From an uncultured Oscillospiraceae bacterium (GTDB lineage: Bacteria > Bacillota > Clostridia > Oscillospirales > Oscillospiraceae): 36,755 nucleotides of DNA. This document shows positions 14,744 through 20,671 of the stretch, piece after piece. The position numbers and the translations under genes are program-made. Numbering within the stretch: the first letter of the stretch is position 1; every line of letters begins with the position of its first letter. Below the pieces are notes generated by a model, which searched no databases, was not told the DNA's origin, and was given only the letters and a program-made list of their open reading frames with translations. Location of the stretch: contig CANPWM010000016.1 of assembly GCA_947584295.1 (NCBI GenBank), positions 1 to 36,755 on the forward strand. Direction: 5' to 3'.

Positions 14744-15796
14744 ATGAAAAAGTTGACAAAACGTATTTTTGTGGGAATGATTGCCGGGGCCGTGGCGCTG
14801 TCCGTCTCCGTCACGGCGCTGGCCGCCCGGTTCCGGGACGTCCCGGCGGGCCACTGGGCCGCGGACTACATAGACGCGGCGGCGGAGAGCGGCTGGGTGG
14901 AGGGCTGCGGCGACGGCCTCTTTAAGCCGGAGAAGCGCGTCACCTATGGGGAGTTTGCCGCCATGCTCCTACGGCTGCTGTTCCCGGCGGAGCTGCCGGA
15001 GAAGAACATCGGGCGGGTCTGGTATGAGCCGTATCTGGAGACCTGCGCCAAAAAAGGGATCTTTGACGGCACGGCCCTGGATCTGGGGGCGGACGGCGAC
15101 ACGGAGATGACCAGGACGGAGCTGGCGGTCACCGTGCGGAACGCCCTTCTGGCCGCCGGGGTGAAGATGCCGGGGGAGCGGGAGCTGCTGGCCGTGAGCG
15201 TGCCGGATCTGGCAAAGTACGGCGGCGGGGAGCGCGAGGCCATCAGGGCGGTGTACGCCCTGGGCGTTATCCGGGGCTGTGATGAGCGGGGGACGTTCCG
15301 GGGGGCCGAGGGCATGACCCGCGCCGAGGCCGCCACGGTGCTGACGCGCATGAGCGGCCTGGAGCCCTCGGGCGAGGTTACGCCGCCCGCGCCGGATCTG
15401 GAGGCGCGGCAGAGGGCCGCCTATGAGGCCATCATCGCCATGAGAGCCAGATACCCGGAGGGAACCCCCTGGACGAACGAAAATTCCTACGCCTGGCACG
15501 GCGGCGTCTTCAATGTGGGCTACGGCTGCGCGGGATTCGCGTTCCTGCTCAGCGACGCGGCCTTCGGGCAGGCCCCGGCCAGAATGGTGCGCTCCTTCAC
15601 CCTTGAGGACGCGCGCGTGGGGGATATCCTGCGGGTGAACGGCAACACCCACTCCGTCGTCGTCCTGGAGGTGCGCGAGGACTCCGTCATCGTGGCCGAG
15701 GGCAACTACAACGGCGCCGTCCACTGGGGCCGGGAGCTGCCCCGGGCGACGGTGGAGAACGCGGATTATCTGCTGACGAGATACGGGGAAGATTGA
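14744..15796 (+). CDS. SLH-domain cell-surface protein with a C-terminal Cys/His amidase-like domain
   Basis: A 350-residue exported protein. The signal peptide is residues 1-28 (KKLTKRIF, hydrophobic core, ALA-A cleavage). Three S-layer-homology segments follow: FRDVPAGHWAADYIDAAAES with VEGCGDGLFKPEKRVTYGEF, a weaker middle one (YEPYLETCAKKGIFDG), and AIRAVYALGVIRGCDERGTF with GMTRAEAATVLTRM. The C-terminal domain (about residues 230-350) has WHGGVFNVGYGCAGFAF with Cys262 and NTHSVVVLEV with His303, resembling NlpC/CHAP-type cysteine hydrolases. Inferred role: wall-anchored hydrolase or adhesin; activity is not shown. Its 3' half is duplicated at 18264-18810. Confidence 0.8.
   Translation: MKKLTKRIFVGMIAGAVALSVSVTALAARFRDVPAGHWAADYIDAAAESGWVEGCGDGLFKPEKRVTYGEFAAMLLRLLFPAELPEKNIGRVWYEPYLETCAKKGIFDGTALDLGADGDTEMTRTELAVTVRNALLAAGVKMPGERELLAVSVPDLAKYGGGEREAIRAVYALGVIRGCDERGTFRGAEGMTRAEAATVLTRMSGLEPSGEVTPPAPDLEARQRAAYEAIIAMRARYPEGTPWTNENSYAWHGGVFNVGYGCAGFAFLLSDAAFGQAPARMVRSFTLEDARVGDILRVNGNTHSVVVLEVREDSVIVAEGNYNGAVHWGRELPRATVENADYLLTRYGED
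15246..15792 (+). repeat. Direct repeat, copy 1 (547 bp, inside the SLH gene)
   Basis: Identical base for base, by line-by-line comparison, to 18264-18810. It covers the third SLH segment and the Cys/His domain up to two codons before the stop. Copies are 3018 bp apart, with the second sigma operon between them. Confidence 0.93.
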
Positions 15797-15797
15797 G

Positions 15798-15834
15798 AAA
15801 ACAGCCTCCGACTTTTTGTCGGAGGCTGTTTTGC
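15798..15834 (+). terminator. Terminator of the SLH gene; CAGCCTCCGAC hairpin family
   Basis: ACAGCCTCCGAC, TTTTT loop, GTCGGAGGCTGT, then TTTTG, directly after the stop. Related hairpins lie at 15937-15969, 18204-18231 and 19171-19201, so this is a local repeated terminator-like element. Confidence 0.85.
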
Positions 15835-16080
15835 TCCGCGCATGGCCGGAGGGCCATACACTGTGCAAAACAAAAGGGATTTTTTCCGACGTACATGCCG
15901 CCGGAAAAAACTCGATTTGAGTTTTTTGACAAGTTGAACCAGTCTCCGACTTTTTGTCGGAGGCTGGTTAGCCTGTCGAAAAGGGCCGTTGGCCTTTTCC
16001 GACGATCCCAGCTTGACTTCGTGTTCCCGGCCAAGCCGCTATTTATAAAAGGCATTAATTTAAAATTACTTTTTTCTCCC
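15835..16080. repeat. Intergenic spacer with a repeat unit shared with 18143-18231
   Basis: No gene seen. ATTTTTTCCGACGTACATGC followed by CGCCGGAAAA and GATTTGAGTTTTTTGACAA (15881-15932) recurs at 18145-18197, followed in both places by a CTCCGAC hairpin (15937-15969 and 18204-18231). A further hairpin-like stretch (GTCGAAAAGGGCC / GGCCTTTTCCGAC) lies at 15968-16001. Confidence 0.7.
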
Positions 16081-16713: not shown

Positions 16714-17528
16714 ACATACCGAGGATCGCCGACGTCCTGGGCCTCATTGACGAGGATCTGCTGGACGCCGAGCTTCCAAGGAGACGGCGCGGCACGACCG
16801 CCAGGATCCTTCTGGCCGCCGCCTGCGTGTGCCTCGCTCTGGGGACAGTCACCGCCCTCGCCGCCGGGGCGGGAACCACGCTTTTGGCGAAGTTCCGAAA
16901 AGGGGAGAACGGCGGCTTCGAGTCCGGCTACGACATGGCCGCCCAGCTGACGCCCTTCCCGGAGGAGGCCCTGACCGGGGACATCCGAGAGGCCCCGGCC
17001 CTCATCCGCCGGCAGATTGAGGAAGCCACCCTCTGGTCAAACCAGTCCCCCAACGTCTATATCTGTGAGTTCGACACCTCCGCCCAGGCCCTGGAGTATG
17101 TGGGCCTTGAGGAGCTCCGGCCCATCCGCTGGGATGTGGAGGAGACGGGGACGACTCTCTCCGTCTTCGGGGGACAGCGGGGGGAGATCGCCAGTGTGAG
17201 CATTATGACCTACTGCCAGAAGGGGGACGTGCGCCTCCAGACCCAGGCGTGGCTGCGCACGGAGAACGACAGTGCGGACAACACCTTCAGCGTCCGCACC
17301 ACGGAGGATGTGGATTACACGGAGGAGTGCTTCACCGCCGCCGGGGGCTTTGACTGTCATGTGATCCGCTCCACCGCCCTGGAGAGCGGTTTTGTCACCT
17401 ATGACGGCTGCATCGTCCGCGCCGGTATCCTCTACACCCTCCACGCCGCTTACCTGCCCTCCGCCGAGGCCCAGGCCGACGGGCTCCTACACACCTGGGC
17501 CGACCAGTTTGAGCCGGAAACGAGGTGA
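16710..17528 (+). CDS. Anti-sigma-factor-like membrane protein (second system)
   Basis: A 272-residue protein starting at the ATG that overlaps the sigma stop by four bases. N-terminal cytoplasmic motif IADVLGLIDEDLLDAEL, basic RRRR, one membrane helix (about residues 30-52, ARILLAAACVCLALGTVTAL), then an extracytoplasmic domain with two cysteines near the end (ECFTAAGGFDCHVI, DGCIVRAGI). The C-terminal domain does not visibly match the one at 4650-5660, so the two systems probably sense different signals. Its role as inhibitor of the adjoining sigma factor is inferred from position and topology. Confidence 0.7.
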   Translation: MNIPRIADVLGLIDEDLLDAELPRRRRGTTARILLAAACVCLALGTVTALAAGAGTTLLAKFRKGENGGFESGYDMAAQLTPFPEEALTGDIREAPALIRRQIEEATLWSNQSPNVYICEFDTSAQALEYVGLEELRPIRWDVEETGTTLSVFGGQRGEIASVSIMTYCQKGDVRLQTQAWLRTENDSADNTFSVRTTEDVDYTEECFTAAGGFDCHVIRSTALESGFVTYDGCIVRAGILYTLHAAYLPSAEAQADGLLHTWADQFEPETR

Positions 17529-17538
17529 AAAGGATTTG

Positions 17539-18066
17539 ATGAGGAAACGGCTTTTAACGGCTGTCCTGGCCGTGCTTCTCCTTTTTTCCCTCTCCGCCTG
17601 CGGGGAAACGGCGTCGGAAAAGGACGTTGAATTGGATATGGACGCCATCGCCCAGGCCCTGTGCGCCAGCGGGTATTTTTCCGGGGAAATGGCCATGGTG
17701 GATCCAAAATCGGTGCCTGAGCTTTTGCTCCTGGATACAGACAGGGTCGAGGCATCAACAGAGGATCTGGTGGACGCCAGATACTACGGCGTGACGATAG
17801 GCACTTCCGCCAATCAGTTTATTCTGCTGGAGGGAGCCGACTCAAAAGCGGCGGAACGATTGGAAAAGGCGCTGAAAACCTATGTCGAGGACCAGAGAAC
17901 GGGGTTTGAGCTTTATCTCCCGGAGCAGGCGGCAAGGTTTGAGAACTTCATTCTGGAGCGCCGGGGCAGATATCTCCTTTTTGCCATAGGAGATGACCGT
18001 GAAGCGCTGTCCGGCCTTTGCCGCCAGCTTATGAGCGGTGAGGGAGTAATACACACCGTTGGATAA
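17539..18066 (+). CDS. DUF4358-type lipoprotein
   Basis: A 175-residue protein starting at ATG 17539, ten bases after the anti-sigma-like stop; a weak GGTGAAAAGG precedes it. The signal peptide ends in a lipobox LSAC with Cys21. The body carries VPELLLLDTDRVE, YYGVTIGTSANQFILLEGAD and KAAERLEKALKTYVEDQ, the pattern of DUF4358 lipoproteins as I recall them. Probably membrane-anchored outside the cell and cotranscribed with the sigma pair, perhaps a target or sensor part. Function unknown. Confidence 0.75.
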   Translation: MRKRLLTAVLAVLLLFSLSACGETASEKDVELDMDAIAQALCASGYFSGEMAMVDPKSVPELLLLDTDRVEASTEDLVDARYYGVTIGTSANQFILLEGADSKAAERLEKALKTYVEDQRTGFELYLPEQAARFENFILERRGRYLLFAIGDDREALSGLCRQLMSGEGVIHTVG

Positions 18067-18142
18067 ATATTTGCCCTGGCCGCAGCCGCAAAGTTCCGAG
18101 AACACAAAAGGGTATTGGAAGTTCCGACAGAGGGGACATAAT

Positions 18143-18231
18143 GGATTTTTTCCGACGTACATGCCGCCGGAAAAGTTGGATTTGAGTTTTTTGACAAACC
18201 GCAACAGCCTCCGACTTTTGCCGGAGGCTGT
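18143..18231 (+). repeat. Second copy of the spacer unit plus CTCCGAC hairpin
   Basis: Matches 15879-15969 in its left part (ATTTTTTCCGACGTACATGC onward, a few changes in the middle) and ends with ACAGCCTCCGAC-TTTTG-CCGGAGGCTGT. It acts as a plausible terminator of the sigma operon but lacks a clean T-run. Confidence 0.7.
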
Positions 18232-18263
18232 CAGTCTGTAGACAAACACCGCCCCAAGCCGAG

Positions 18264-18810
18264 GGGCGGTGTACGCCCTGGGCGTTATCCGGGGCTGTGA
18301 TGAGCGGGGGACGTTCCGGGGGGCCGAGGGCATGACCCGCGCCGAGGCCGCCACGGTGCTGACGCGCATGAGCGGCCTGGAGCCCTCGGGCGAGGTTACG
18401 CCGCCCGCGCCGGATCTGGAGGCGCGGCAGAGGGCCGCCTATGAGGCCATCATCGCCATGAGAGCCAGATACCCGGAGGGAACCCCCTGGACGAACGAAA
18501 ATTCCTACGCCTGGCACGGCGGCGTCTTCAATGTGGGCTACGGCTGCGCGGGATTCGCGTTCCTGCTCAGCGACGCGGCCTTCGGGCAGGCCCCGGCCAG
18601 AATGGTGCGCTCCTTCACCCTTGAGGACGCGCGCGTGGGGGATATCCTGCGGGTGAACGGCAACACCCACTCCGTCGTCGTCCTGGAGGTGCGCGAGGAC
18701 TCCGTCATCGTGGCCGAGGGCAACTACAACGGCGCCGTCCACTGGGGCCGGGAGCTGCCCCGGGCGACGGTGGAGAACGCGGATTATCTGCTGACGAGAT
18801 ACGGGGAAGA
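18264..18810 (+). repeat. Direct repeat, copy 2 (547 bp)
   Basis: Exact counterpart of 15246-15792. Sequence before and after differs, so the repeat ends are sharp: GGGCGG at the left, GGGGAAGA at the right. Confidence 0.93.
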
Positions 18811-18814
18811 GTAA
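18264..18814 (+). pseudogene. Truncated duplicate of the SLH protein gene (3' half only)
   Basis: Carries codons 170-349 of the SLH gene at 14744, identical in sequence, with a different last codon and stop (Glu, TAA instead of Asp, TGA). It lacks the signal peptide and the first two SLH segments. The only possible start is the GTG at 18269, which has no Shine-Dalgarno, and the upstream sequence (GCCCCAAGCCGAGGGGC) is a small hairpin. It is best read as a recent partial duplication. A cytoplasmic 181-residue product would not reach the wall. Confidence 0.8.
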
Positions 18815-18822
18815 AATACCGC

Positions 18823-18851
18823 TTGACAAGCAAGCGGCGAGAGGCTATAAT
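18823..18851 (+). promoter_or_regulatory. Consensus sigma-A promoter of a small RNA
   Basis: TTGACA (18823-18828), 17 bases, TATAAT (18846-18851), an exact consensus match. No plus-strand ORF with a ribosome binding site follows before a terminator hairpin at 18949-18990. Confidence 0.9.
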
Positions 18852-18857
18852 GACAAT

Positions 18858-18993
18858 AGAAGTGGGTCGCCGTGGGCGGTGACCTTCAACGAGCGGCCTG
18901 ATCCTAAGTGCGAGGGGATCTCAGGCTACGATATGTTCTATCATAGCAAAAGACAGACCGTCACTCTTGACCAGTGGCGGTCTTGTCTTTAGT
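18858..18993 (+). ncRNA. Small antisense RNA, candidate type I antitoxin
   Basis: Runs from the expected start of the consensus promoter to the hairpin at 18949-18990 (AAAGAC-GACCG-CACT paired with AGTG-CGGTC-GTCTTT), giving about 135 nt. It has GC-rich foldable segments (GGGTCGCCGTGGGCGGTGACC; GATCC-GGGATC). Its last 33 bases are complementary to the 3' end of the 33-codon ORF on the other strand, and the rest covers that mRNA's possible 3' extension. Predicted from promoter and terminator only. Confidence 0.7.
18949..18990. terminator. Shared bidirectional terminator hairpin of the small RNA and the short ORF
   Basis: Long imperfect stem, arms AAAGACAGACCGTCACT and AGTGGCGGTCTTGTCTTT, seven-base loop. 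T-runs are short on both sides (CTTTAG on plus, CTTTTGC on minus). The stop codon of the minus-strand ORF lies in the stem. Confidence 0.75.
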
Positions 18994-19062
18994 TATCCTC
19001 AGCGTAAATCTATATCCACGCCAATGTAACGTAATAGACAATGGAAGAATGTTTTTGAGCAT
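18961..19062 (-). CDS. 33-residue cationic peptide, candidate type I toxin
   Basis: ATG 19062-19060 to TGA 18963-18961, with AAAGGAGGA ending nine bases upstream. The peptide starts MLKNILPL and has the alternating hydrophobic/basic core SITLHWRGYRFTLRITK, then DKTATGQE. It has no membrane helix of the TxpA/BsrG/Fst kind; an amphipathic beta hairpin is more likely. Its gene has an exact consensus promoter (19143-19171), an occluded Shine-Dalgarno in the 5' leader and an overlapping antisense RNA with its own exact consensus promoter. I do not recognise the peptide. The coding call rests on the RBS and the regulatory layout, and the toxin role is inference. Confidence 0.6.
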   Translation of the reverse strand: MLKNILPLSITLHWRGYRFTLRITKDKTATGQE

Positions 19063-19070
19063 CTTCACAT

Positions 19071-19091
19071 TCCTCCTTTCATCAAGGAGGA
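19071..19091 (-). promoter_or_regulatory. Hairpin sequestering the Shine-Dalgarno of the short ORF
   Basis: Minus strand TCCTCCTT, loop GATGA, AAGGAGGA: eight perfect pairs that bury the ribosome binding site. In type I toxins such 5'-leader occlusion is a common second layer of control. Confidence 0.75.
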
Positions 19092-19142
19092 TCAGACCGC
19101 ACCGTTTGTTTCCGGCCGCGTACCCACGGCTTCCCAAACACT

Positions 19143-19171
19143 ATTATACGACCCGCTTCATATTATGTCAA
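19143..19171 (-). promoter_or_regulatory. Consensus sigma-A promoter of the 33-codon ORF
   Basis: Minus strand TTGACA (19171-19166), 17 bases, TATAAT (19148-19143), an exact consensus match. The -35 touches the base of the hairpin at 19171-19201. The predicted mRNA leader is about 75 nt. Confidence 0.9.
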
Positions 19172-19204
19172 CAGCCTCCGACAAAAATCGGAGGCTGTTT
19201 TCTC
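19171..19204 (+). terminator. CAGCCTCCGAC hairpin between the short ORF locus and the ABC permease
   Basis: ACAGCCTCCGA-CAAAAA-TCGGAGGCTGT followed on plus by TTTTCTC. On minus it follows the permease stop but lacks a T-run. Fourth member of the local hairpin family. Confidence 0.65.
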
Positions 19205-19823
19205 ATTTTTCCACCCGCTTTTTGTAGCCCGCTGTGGAGAGGGGGATGGTGGCGGCGCATATGGCGGCGGCCAGCAGCAGATAGACGGGGATGGGGATGC
19301 GGGAGGTGACCTTCAGCAGCGTGTAAAAGCCGTCCCCGTCGCCCATGGACGCGCCCACGGCGCCGCCGATGATCCCGGCGAACAGGATGGTCACGATCCG
19401 TCCCCTGGCGTAACCGAAGCGGAAATTCACCGGGAGCATCACGGCCTGCATTACCAGGGCGATGGCGGCGTACAGGCACAGGAGGGCGGGGAGCCGACTG
19501 TCTAACTCCGAAATCCCCGCCACGGCGTACAGGGCCTGGGACGCCAGGGACAGCGCCAGCGCGGCGATGATGCCCAGCCAGCCCATGATGTATTTCACCG
19601 TCACAAGCTGGCCCCGGGAATAGGGGAGCATCAGGGCCAGGGAGTCCCACTGGCTCTGCTCGTCCGCGCTCACCAGCGAAACGGAGGTGAGCATCATGGC
19701 GTAGAGAAAGGTGAAGGGCATCAAAAGCCCACCGGGGATGGCGCTGAAAATCACCATCACCAGGAAAAGCACCCTGAATTGGGTGAGCATCATATAAATA
19801 TCCTTCCGAATCAGCGCTTTCAT
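19203..19823 (-). CDS. ABC-2 type transporter permease
   Basis: A 206-residue integral membrane protein with about five or six hydrophobic helices (VLFLVMVIFSAIPGGLLMPF, MGWLGIIAALALSLASQALY, LPALLCLYAAIALVMQAVML, IVTILFAGIIGGAVGAS, VYLLLAAAICAATIPL) and the segment DEQSQWDSLALMLPYSRGQLVTVKY, typical of the small ABC-2 permeases that go with GntR/YtrA regulators. It overlaps the ATPase gene stop by four bases. The complex probably exports a peptide-like or cell-envelope-active compound; the substrate is not evident. Confidence 0.85.
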   Translation of the reverse strand: MKALIRKDIYMMLTQFRVLFLVMVIFSAIPGGLLMPFTFLYAMMLTSVSLVSADEQSQWDSLALMLPYSRGQLVTVKYIMGWLGIIAALALSLASQALYAVAGISELDSRLPALLCLYAAIALVMQAVMLPVNFRFGYARGRIVTILFAGIIGGAVGASMGDGDGFYTLLKVTSRIPIPVYLLLAAAICAATIPLSTAGYKKRVEK

Positions 19824-20671
19824 TCTCTGACCCCCTTGGCGAAAAATACGATGATGTCCTCCAGCGTGGGCTTTTCCATGGGGATGCCGGGGTTTACAAG
19901 CTGCCGCTCCACCAGGGCCTCCACGCCGTACTTGCCCCGGCGCACGCCCTTGACGGCCTCCTCCGGGATATCCGCCAGCTCCGCCTCGGTGATGTGGGCC
20001 ATGGCGTACTCCTCCATGAGCCGATCCTTCTCCTCAAAGAGCAGCAGCTCGCCCTTGTGCAAAAAGGCTATGTAGTCGCACAGCTTCTCCAGGTCGCTGA
20101 CGATGTGGGAGCTTATCAGCACCGACCTGTCCTCCCGGCGGGTAAATTCCTCCAGAATGTCCAAAATCTCGTCCCGCACCAGGGGATCCAGCCCCCCGGT
20201 GGGTTCGTCCAGCACCAGCAGCTTTGCGTCGTGGCTCAGGGCGCAGGCCAGGGCCAGCTTCATGCGCATACCTCGGGAGAAGTCCTGGACGCGCTTTTTC
20301 TCCGGCAGATCCAGCCGCTTCAAATAGCCGTCGTAGACGGCCTGATCCCACCGGGAATAAGTCCCGGCCATGATCCGGCCCAGGTGTCTGGCGTTCAGGG
20401 ACGTGGGGAAGTGGGCCTCGTCCAGCACCACGCCGATGTCGTCCCTGACCTTGGTGAAGGCCTTGTCGTCTGTCACCTCGGTGTTCAGCACCCGGACAAA
20501 CCCGGAGGAGGCCCTGGAGGCCCCCATGATAAGGCGGATCAGGGTGGATTTTCCGGCGCCGTTTTCCCCCACCAGGCCCATGATGCACCCCTCCGGCAGA
20601 GAGAAGCTTATGTTGCTGATGGTAAAGCCGGGATAGCTCTTGCTCAGAGCGCGAACTTCTATGGCGTTCAT
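19820..20671 (-). CDS. ABC transporter ATP-binding protein
   Basis: A 283-residue cytoplasmic ATPase with Walker A GLVGENGAGKSTLIR, a Q-loop region near VVLDEAHFP (the usual Gln is not obvious), signature DFSRGMRMKLALA in place of LSGGQ, Walker B LLVLDEPTGGLDP and H-loop SSHIVSDLE. The degenerate signature is common in exporters of the YtrB type. Start and stop overlap its neighbours (GntR gene upstream, permease downstream). The C-terminal 70 residues (VKGVRRGKYGVEALVERQ) are a regulatory extension. Confidence 0.92.
   Translation of the reverse strand: MNAIEVRALSKSYPGFTISNISFSLPEGCIMGLVGENGAGKSTLIRLIMGASRASSGFVRVLNTEVTDDKAFTKVRDDIGVVLDEAHFPTSLNARHLGRIMAGTYSRWDQAVYDGYLKRLDLPEKKRVQDFSRGMRMKLALACALSHDAKLLVLDEPTGGLDPLVRDEILDILEEFTRREDRSVLISSHIVSDLEKLCDYIAFLHKGELLLFEEKDRLMEEYAMAHITEAELADIPEEAVKGVRRGKYGVEALVERQLVNPGIPMEKPTLEDIIVFFAKGVRE

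Follow-up and report, generated by a model that had tools for sequence, protein, structure and literature searches.

Nearly all known type I toxins are hydrophobic membrane helices, from which the peptide family described here differs. The genes of the Bacillus subtilis modules txpA/RatA, bsrG/SR4 and bsrE/SR5 are convergent and overlap at their 3' ends, the overlap of IsoA1 lies in the toxin ORF, and no 5'-3' helix is known in the three B. subtilis modules or in CD2517.1/RCd8. The latter genes, from C. difficile, are convergent according to the accessible part of PMC6563280. In aapA/IsoA and hok/Sok the full-length mRNA is closed by 5'-3' pairing, and local hairpins masking the Shine-Dalgarno (SD) sequence are possible co-transcriptional intermediates, as set out in the accessible text of PMC6733600. 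The par module of pAD1 combines convergent promoters, an mRNA of ~230 nt, an SD stem-loop and a hairpin on both strands (PMC7472228, accessible portion). A 2021 review, in the portion available, presents membrane type I toxins as alpha-helical with RalR and SymE as cytosolic exceptions, and one of its figure legends also has a beta-sheet colour (PMC8309996).

The window, which is the whole stretch of 36,755 nucleotides from an uncultured Oscillospiraceae bacterium analysed here, contains two convergent TTGACA-17-TATAAT promoters that are both perfect (12/12 consensus matches), as an earlier note on this DNA had claimed. The plus-strand promoter (18823..18851) is predicted to drive a small RNA (sRNA), and the minus-strand promoter (19143..19171), present at the same place in most homologues, is predicted to drive a peptide mRNA with an expected transcription start near 19136 on the minus strand. 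A promoter scan of 17500-20500 displays 3 promoter-like sites against 0.8 in shuffles. The mRNA leader of ~74 nt (19063..19136, minus strand) comprises a 5' domain and an SD hairpin and is followed by the ORF, MLKNILPLSITLHWRGYRFTLRITKDKTATGQE, whose 33 codons and stop occupy 18961..19062 of the minus strand as the earlier note had it, and which is predicted to encode a beta-hairpin. The SD sequence was also correctly described as locked: a perfect 8-bp hairpin with a 5-nt loop (19071-78/19084-91, minus strand) covers GGAGG, and the SD hairpin is conserved in the family. A hairpin of 11 pairs at the ORF end (18955..18983), with a U-rich tail on the plus strand reaching ~18992, is the predicted terminator of the sRNA, whose expected extent is ~137 nt (18858..18994, plus strand; fold z -3.9). 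The module is single-copy in the window's own genome. A separate hairpin, AACAGCCTCCGA...TCGGAGGCTGTT, occurs in four copies (15795-15830, 15937-15966, 18203-18231 and 19169-19199), on this contig only at the threshold used, the last copy overlapping the -35 box of the mRNA promoter.

Relatives of the module are patchily distributed. A DNA search matched 4/300 genomes of the bacterial family, one being the window's own and one (G256) matching with the hairpin only, and a peptide search with E up to 10 matched 16/34 genus genomes, where the two weakest loci (L022 and L023) look like chance. A 12-row profile at E 0.01 matched 25/350 family genomes, including a probable chance match inside a 2574-codon frame (L050), and 7/345 order genomes, one of which (L059, in a 526-codon frame) likewise looks like chance. 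These four loci, judged to be chance matches on visual inspection or because they lie in long open frames, were left out of the analysis. A 43-row profile matched 3/299 phylum genomes, all outside the class, and most of the six loci obtained from these matches have the leader motif and the hairpins besides the peptide, the leader being lost in L208. The class-level profile search at E 1e-4 matched 0/341 genomes, a count that says little because that search also missed the window itself. The hits of a DNA pattern in named contigs number at least 120 stretches, of which 80 are given by name; among the matches listed are Oscillospiraceae, Ruminococcaceae and Lachnospiraceae assemblies, F. prausnitzii (strain ATCC 27768 carries the module of L105), F. 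longum, Evtepia gabavorous, Oscillibacter valericigenes, Anaerotruncus sp. G3 and Colidextribacter sp. OB.20, the last with three tandem copies. The pattern also matched 7 viral contigs, from 4/7 of which the module was parsed. Two unannotated faecal phage records (74% identity, E 4e-6 and 1e-2) are hit by a peptide close to the consensus, which also matches Vescimonas fastidiosa; one of the copies there is located between pnp and an HTH gene and is unlisted in the (incomplete) gene table. Searched against phages, the window peptide itself gives nothing below E 3, and against plasmids nothing at all; the module DNA matches neither phages nor plasmids.

In total 128 unique modules were parsed; N runs or loss of the stop codon removed 3/128, and clustering reduced the remaining 125 to 97. 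L047 and L048 are full members at the true position and were left out of one locus-by-locus reading of homologues. The median distance between the two expected transcription starts is 219 bp. Two or three module copies share a contig in L135, L066, L129, L088, L171 and L181, those of L135 being spaced ~315 bp apart, and G117 holds 6 peptide matches. In the four loci searched against Rfam with E up to 5, any match lying over a module falls short of its gathering score, and Rfam gives 0 matches in the window; one of the searched loci carries a T-box-like leader (L016:1019-1253), which scores 82 bits where the gathering score is 93. Among the papers listed by searches of a largely open-access literature, none was recognised as a description of this module family, and none was recognised in the accessible parts of PMC6563280, PMC6733600, PMC8309996, PMC7472228, PMC3871023 and PMC10100781. 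Judged from sequence, the module is a real and conserved two-gene unit with an antisense RNA architecture that no known family fits, and it is a new family. It is probably best read as a type I toxin-antitoxin family that is new and whose peptides are beta-hairpins. The type I reading proposed in the earlier note is strengthened by the conservation of frame, SD hairpin and antisense promoter; its picture of two RNAs sharing one terminator is doubtful.

The typical family peptide is MPITLTFHIFGYTVTIRVKSRNRHSAK, and the window peptide belongs to a diverged group in which LPLSITLHWRG aligns with MPITLTFHIFG. Codons 12-20 were left free by the search pattern, which fixes M1, P2, T4, T6, H8 and G11 together with the middle base of codons 3, 5, 7 and 9. 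When synonymous and non-synonymous change were compared at the free codons, as the earlier note had proposed, the frame proved conserved, 767 close pairs giving a pN/pS of 0.35 in this frame, 1.18 and 2.07 in the two alternative ones. Including the pattern-fixed codons gives 0.226, a value biased because the pattern itself fixes some of them. Modules found without the pattern display pS 0.389 and pN 0.118 in the window's group (four modules), pS 0.661 and pN 0.101 in group C (five modules), and only pS 0.085 and pN 0.051 in group B (four close modules). The peptide frame is, on these codon comparisons, under purifying selection. Coding selection on a short ORF is a trait of type I systems, and so, at the level of sequence, is the predicted antisense RNA gene overlapping the mRNA, with its conserved convergent consensus promoter and its terminator.

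AlphaFold models the window peptide as strands 8-14 and 17-23 joined by a two-residue turn (residues 11-20, mean pLDDT 91), and the L163 peptide as strands 3-9 and 12-18 with a similar two-residue turn. The strand blocks of both reach pLDDT 88-91, the pTM is 0.32 for each, and neither model contains a helix. The residues alternate between hydrophobic and polar, and the models agree with the earlier suggestion of a beta-type peptide rather than a membrane helix; the alpha-helical transmembrane segment of membrane type I toxins is absent from them. Unlike txpA, bsrG, bsrE and CD2517.1, whose toxins are hydrophobic with a membrane segment and find no sequence match here, and unlike the toxins of aapA/IsoA and hok/Sok, to which the family peptide is unrelated (no such Pfam or NCBIfam match), the predicted product is of beta type. 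NCBIfam has no entry matching the window peptide, and Pfam has only two, both beneath the cut-off. PADLOC returns no match for 48 members, PHROGs weak matches for 13/48 (best E 0.0019, phrog_4193), and there is no sequence match to solved structures. There is a weak resemblance to YrzI (TIGR02413, PF09501), which is also short: residues 6-23 of L168 weakly match profile positions 2-19, and 11/48 members in NCBIfam (best E 0.0093) and 12/48 in Pfam (best E 0.019) resemble it. In contrast to true YrzI proteins, every match stays below the curated cut-off (12.6 bits for L168 against 47.05), and 0/98 order genomes exceed it.

These features of the peptide bear on a first alternative, in which a small non-toxic peptide with a role in signalling, stress or sporulation, perhaps YrzI-like, would be made from an mRNA under an antisense RNA with type-I-like regulation. 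A beta-type peptide with one polar face, unlike known type I toxins, is in line with such a role, as is the weak sub-cut-off resemblance to YrzI in both databases. Against it stand three traits more typical of toxin-antitoxin modules, namely a peptide side that decays while the antisense promoter persists, copies in tandem, and a patchy occurrence, and the non-toxic account is considered unlikely. The promoters display this asymmetry. Among 97 non-redundant relatives a score of at least 10 is reached by the sRNA promoter in 93 and by the mRNA promoter in 62, compared with 0.4% of 485 shuffled 130-mers, and a score of at least 9.5 by 94 and 63, respectively; mRNA promoters beyond the scanned range would escape this count. 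The antisense promoter facing the ORF, which the earlier note had pointed out, is therefore not only conserved but the stronger of the two (Wilcoxon 1.8e-12). An mRNA promoter below 8 accompanies an sRNA promoter of at least 10 in 11/97 modules, the reverse is found in 0, and 2 modules have neither promoter.

The peptide gene is broken in 7/22 genus modules read by eye, and the sRNA promoter is intact in 7/7. A deletion breaks the gene in L011, its 5' part is replaced in L012 and L221 (the latter found via its promoter and not its peptide), and insertions break it in L013/L026, which are two halves of one interrupted locus, and in L014, L061 and L062. Thus the peptide side appears to decay first, in a toxin-like manner, and its decay may reflect the drift of a dispensable gene. 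The repeat TTTTTCCGACGTACATGCCGCCGGAAAA, present in the window at about 18144-18176, recurs near the peptide-gene breakpoints of L012 and L221 and may have driven these deletions. An insert of ~150 bp with ends like TACTAATATCTAATTAAAA / TTTTAAATAGATATTAGTA lies near the ORF start in L014, L061 and L062, which suggests a site-preferring miniature element. In L013/L026 (G317:C1:46108-46482) the interrupting insert is ~270 bp long and has tRNA-like ends with GGGTTCGA-type arms.

For the module as a type I system, the reach of the mRNA is informed by its pairing. The 5' domains of the leader and the sRNA of one module are almost identical, an arrangement that constitutes an inverted repeat in the DNA. 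The best 14-mer identity between the leader and sRNA 5' motifs is 11.64 for cognate and 9.68 for non-cognate combinations in 115 modules, and the cognate value lies above all 2000 permutations; L011, L012, L014, L036, L037, L042, L061 and L062, being broken, eroded or rearranged, were left out of this test and of the duplex prediction. Over 735 motif positions in 105/115 modules (six without an anchor and four below 7/11 were omitted), 576 are identical, and the cognate differences are dominated by those that leave a G-U pair on the mRNA strand (87), compared with 11 on the sRNA strand and 61 on neither. The mRNA-strand G-U share of the differences is 55% for cognate and 29% for non-cognate combinations, and the 87:11 ratio against non-cognate means of ~117:65 gives a rough Fisher value of 6e-6. 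To control for relatedness, 52 disjoint sister pairs were compared, including distant ones; 65/86 leader changes in these pairs are accompanied by the matching sRNA change (Fisher 8e-34). Pairing is kept in 57/65 of these double-changed positions, and among the 36 single-side changes 24 interchange a Watson-Crick pair and an mRNA-strand G-U, 5 interchange a Watson-Crick pair and an sRNA-strand G-U, and 7 are of other kinds.

Folding of the full-length mRNAs leads to the same arrangement. RNAalifold finds both long-distance helices unprompted in 72 full-length mRNAs; these 72/97 modules, which also underlie alignment A3 and the pair counts, remain after removal of nine odd ones by hand and of the rest by length and promoter filters. 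In the window the 5' arm of helix 1 (19122..19136, minus strand) pairs with 18863-18877 in the fold of the full-length mRNA and corresponds to family helix 1, and the 5' arm of helix 2, GCGGUCUGAUCCU (19088..19100, minus strand), forms 13 bp with 18893-18905, including one G-U, as indicated by both fold and covariation. The two 3' arms, on the minus strand, are antisense to the sRNA 5' domain. The window full-length mRNA has a fold z of -8.6 with both helices formed. Across the 72 sequences 93.9% of helix cells are paired against 81.3% in shuffles, and 171 cells carry double changes against 49.9, in a test run on the sequences from which the structure was derived and therefore biased in its favour. 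Four of five measures are reached by 0/500 shuffles each, while the count of pairs with change on both sides is weak (12 against 10.1, reached by 30/500 shuffles); the structure exceeds all slides except on this last measure, where one slide exceeds it. A cognate tail gives a long-distance pairing probability of 0.94 and a foreign tail one of 0.56 (67/72 modules), and part of the pairing signal is family-wide sequence because non-cognate tails and motif differences lean the same way. Taken together, covariation and the one-sided wobble place an mRNA-strand RNA over the sRNA gene, and this RNA thus appears to reach the sRNA start and close on itself. The 5'-3' long-distance mRNA pairing characteristic of aapA and hok is accordingly suggested here by both covariation and folding.

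This reach bears on where the two RNAs end. The earlier note had assigned the ORF-end hairpin to both transcripts and likened the overlap to that of BsrG or TxpA at one shared terminator. The convergent genes with 3' overlap are indeed like those of txpA/RatA, bsrG/SR4, bsrE/SR5 and CD2517.1/RCd8, and the hairpin is present, but its action on both strands is doubtful: in 92/97 modules the U-run 3' of it is conserved on the sRNA strand, with U in 63-90/92 modules at five successive positions, and is not conserved on the mRNA strand. With covariation and the one-sided wobble carrying mRNA-strand RNA to the sRNA start, an overlap confined to one shared terminator fits poorly. Ending of both RNAs at this hairpin is disfavoured, the mRNA-strand U-run being missing and the wobble biased to the mRNA strand. 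The mRNA most likely ends, as we infer from alignment A3, where its strand carries the antisense of the sRNA 5' hairpin and then a U-rich stretch, and in the window's group most likely at a hairpin over the sRNA -35 box. Such a terminator-like hairpin is found in the window at 18818..18838 (minus strand), overlapping that box, and by eye has a longer U-run in L010, L011, L012 and L024.

The Shine-Dalgarno sequence is predominantly paired. Its mean unpaired probability is 0.126, compared with 0.374 after shuffling of the upstream part alone (93/97 modules). In the full-length mRNA of the window the SD pairs with codons 4-7 instead of the local hairpin, and in the 3'-truncated mRNA the local SD hairpin is used and leader GCGGUCU pairs with the ORF end. 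Pairing in trans of sRNA GCGGUUU with the ORF-end AAACCGC was considered and set aside; the motif fits many loci, and by eye its changes follow the leader, not the ORF end. Plain duplex prediction was uninformative on this pairing, as local structure is ignored in it. A predicted full-length mRNA closed 5'-3' together with a local SD-masking hairpin resembles aapA/IsoA and hok/Sok, as far as these are described in the accessible literature. In contrast to aapA and hok, the long-distance helix does not itself cover the SD, and removal of the 3' end in silico leaves the SD paired (unpaired 0.14 full-length and 0.13 truncated; 67/72 modules). Equilibrium folding thus does not reproduce a hok/aapA-type switch, and this is the main gap in the analogy. 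A leader acting as a standby site, removed by the long-distance pairing, would fit, as a guess. In contrast to IsoA, the putative antisense RNA covers the 3' UTR and the end of the ORF and not the ORF.

A second alternative places the module close to par (fst/RNA II) of Enterococcus pAD1: both RNAs would terminate at a hairpin common to them, and contact of the sRNA with the toxin mRNA would take place at the terminator loop and at a second site in the leader. The resemblance in layout extends to convergent promoters, an mRNA of ~230 nt, a 33-aa peptide, an SD stem-loop and a shared hairpin, as far as par is covered in the accessible portion of PMC7472228, and direct sRNA-leader complementarity displays a small cognate excess (18.38 against 17.85, 3/1000 permutations). 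In contrast to par, however, the shared motif is an inverted and not a direct repeat, so that it reads alike in the two RNAs instead of being complementary. The wobble asymmetry, in addition, needs mRNA-strand RNA past the hairpin, and the mRNA here appears to extend over the sRNA gene. As regards a bidirectional terminator of the par/fst type, the hairpin is common to both strands and the U-run after it is conserved on the sRNA strand only. The peptide has no Fst match in Pfam or NCBIfam. A par/fst-like system is considered very unlikely, and a par-like contact of the sRNA with the leader may exist in view of the small cognate excess.

The surroundings of the module vary. The ABC permease preceding the window module has matches in 22 genus genomes, 10/22 of these being <41% identical and perhaps not orthologues. 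A 12/12 promoter lies directly after the permease stop in 8/22 genomes, with the mRNA end first in 3 and the sRNA end first in 5, and is lacking there in 14/22. Thus the slot behind the permease holds the module either way round or not at all, and the module may behave as a mobile unit, small and indifferent to orientation; it may be mobile and coding at once. A pure mobile element of the MITE type, its promoters pointing inward and the ORF being a passenger, could account for the post-permease slot occupied in either orientation (3 / 5; 14 without) and for the six peptide matches in G117, but is scarcely credible since purifying selection on the frame and RNA-level wobble asymmetry are unexpected for DNA ends. 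A leader peptide or attenuator of a neighbouring gene was also rejected, no neighbour (frames of at least 90 codons within 1.5 kb) being common to more than 2/97 modules.

In the type I toxin-antitoxin reading, which is retained as the probable one, the weaker promoter would give an mRNA for a basic beta-hairpin peptide of 20-33 residues and the stronger convergent promoter an antisense sRNA ending in the ORF-end hairpin. The mRNA would read through this hairpin up to the start of the sRNA gene, which would make its 3' part complementary to the sRNA. The full-length mRNA would have its 5' domain paired with its 3' end through the two helices antisense to the sRNA 5' domain, with the SD held by the local hairpin or, in the window full-length copy, by codons 4-7. 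Newly made mRNA would be silenced by the long-distance pairing together with the SD hairpin, loss or opening of the 3' end would yield a translatable one, and pairing of the sRNA with the 3' part would lead to decay or silence. Transcription from both promoters, the toxicity of the peptide and its activation by 3' processing are accordingly proposed parts of this scheme, and the target is perhaps a membrane or a protein surface met by the beta-hairpin.

The features that appear new are the predicted beta-hairpin peptide and the closure of the mRNA by an inverted repeat, and the peptide class may be categorically new if toxicity is shown. If the reading is true, a gene pair widespread in gut Oscillospiraceae and Lachnospiraceae, including Faecalibacterium, would have been overlooked because its peptide has only 20-33 residues. 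A beta-hairpin class would then be added to the type I toxins, and the family would provide a Gram-positive and densely sampled example of 5'-3' closure of a toxin mRNA.
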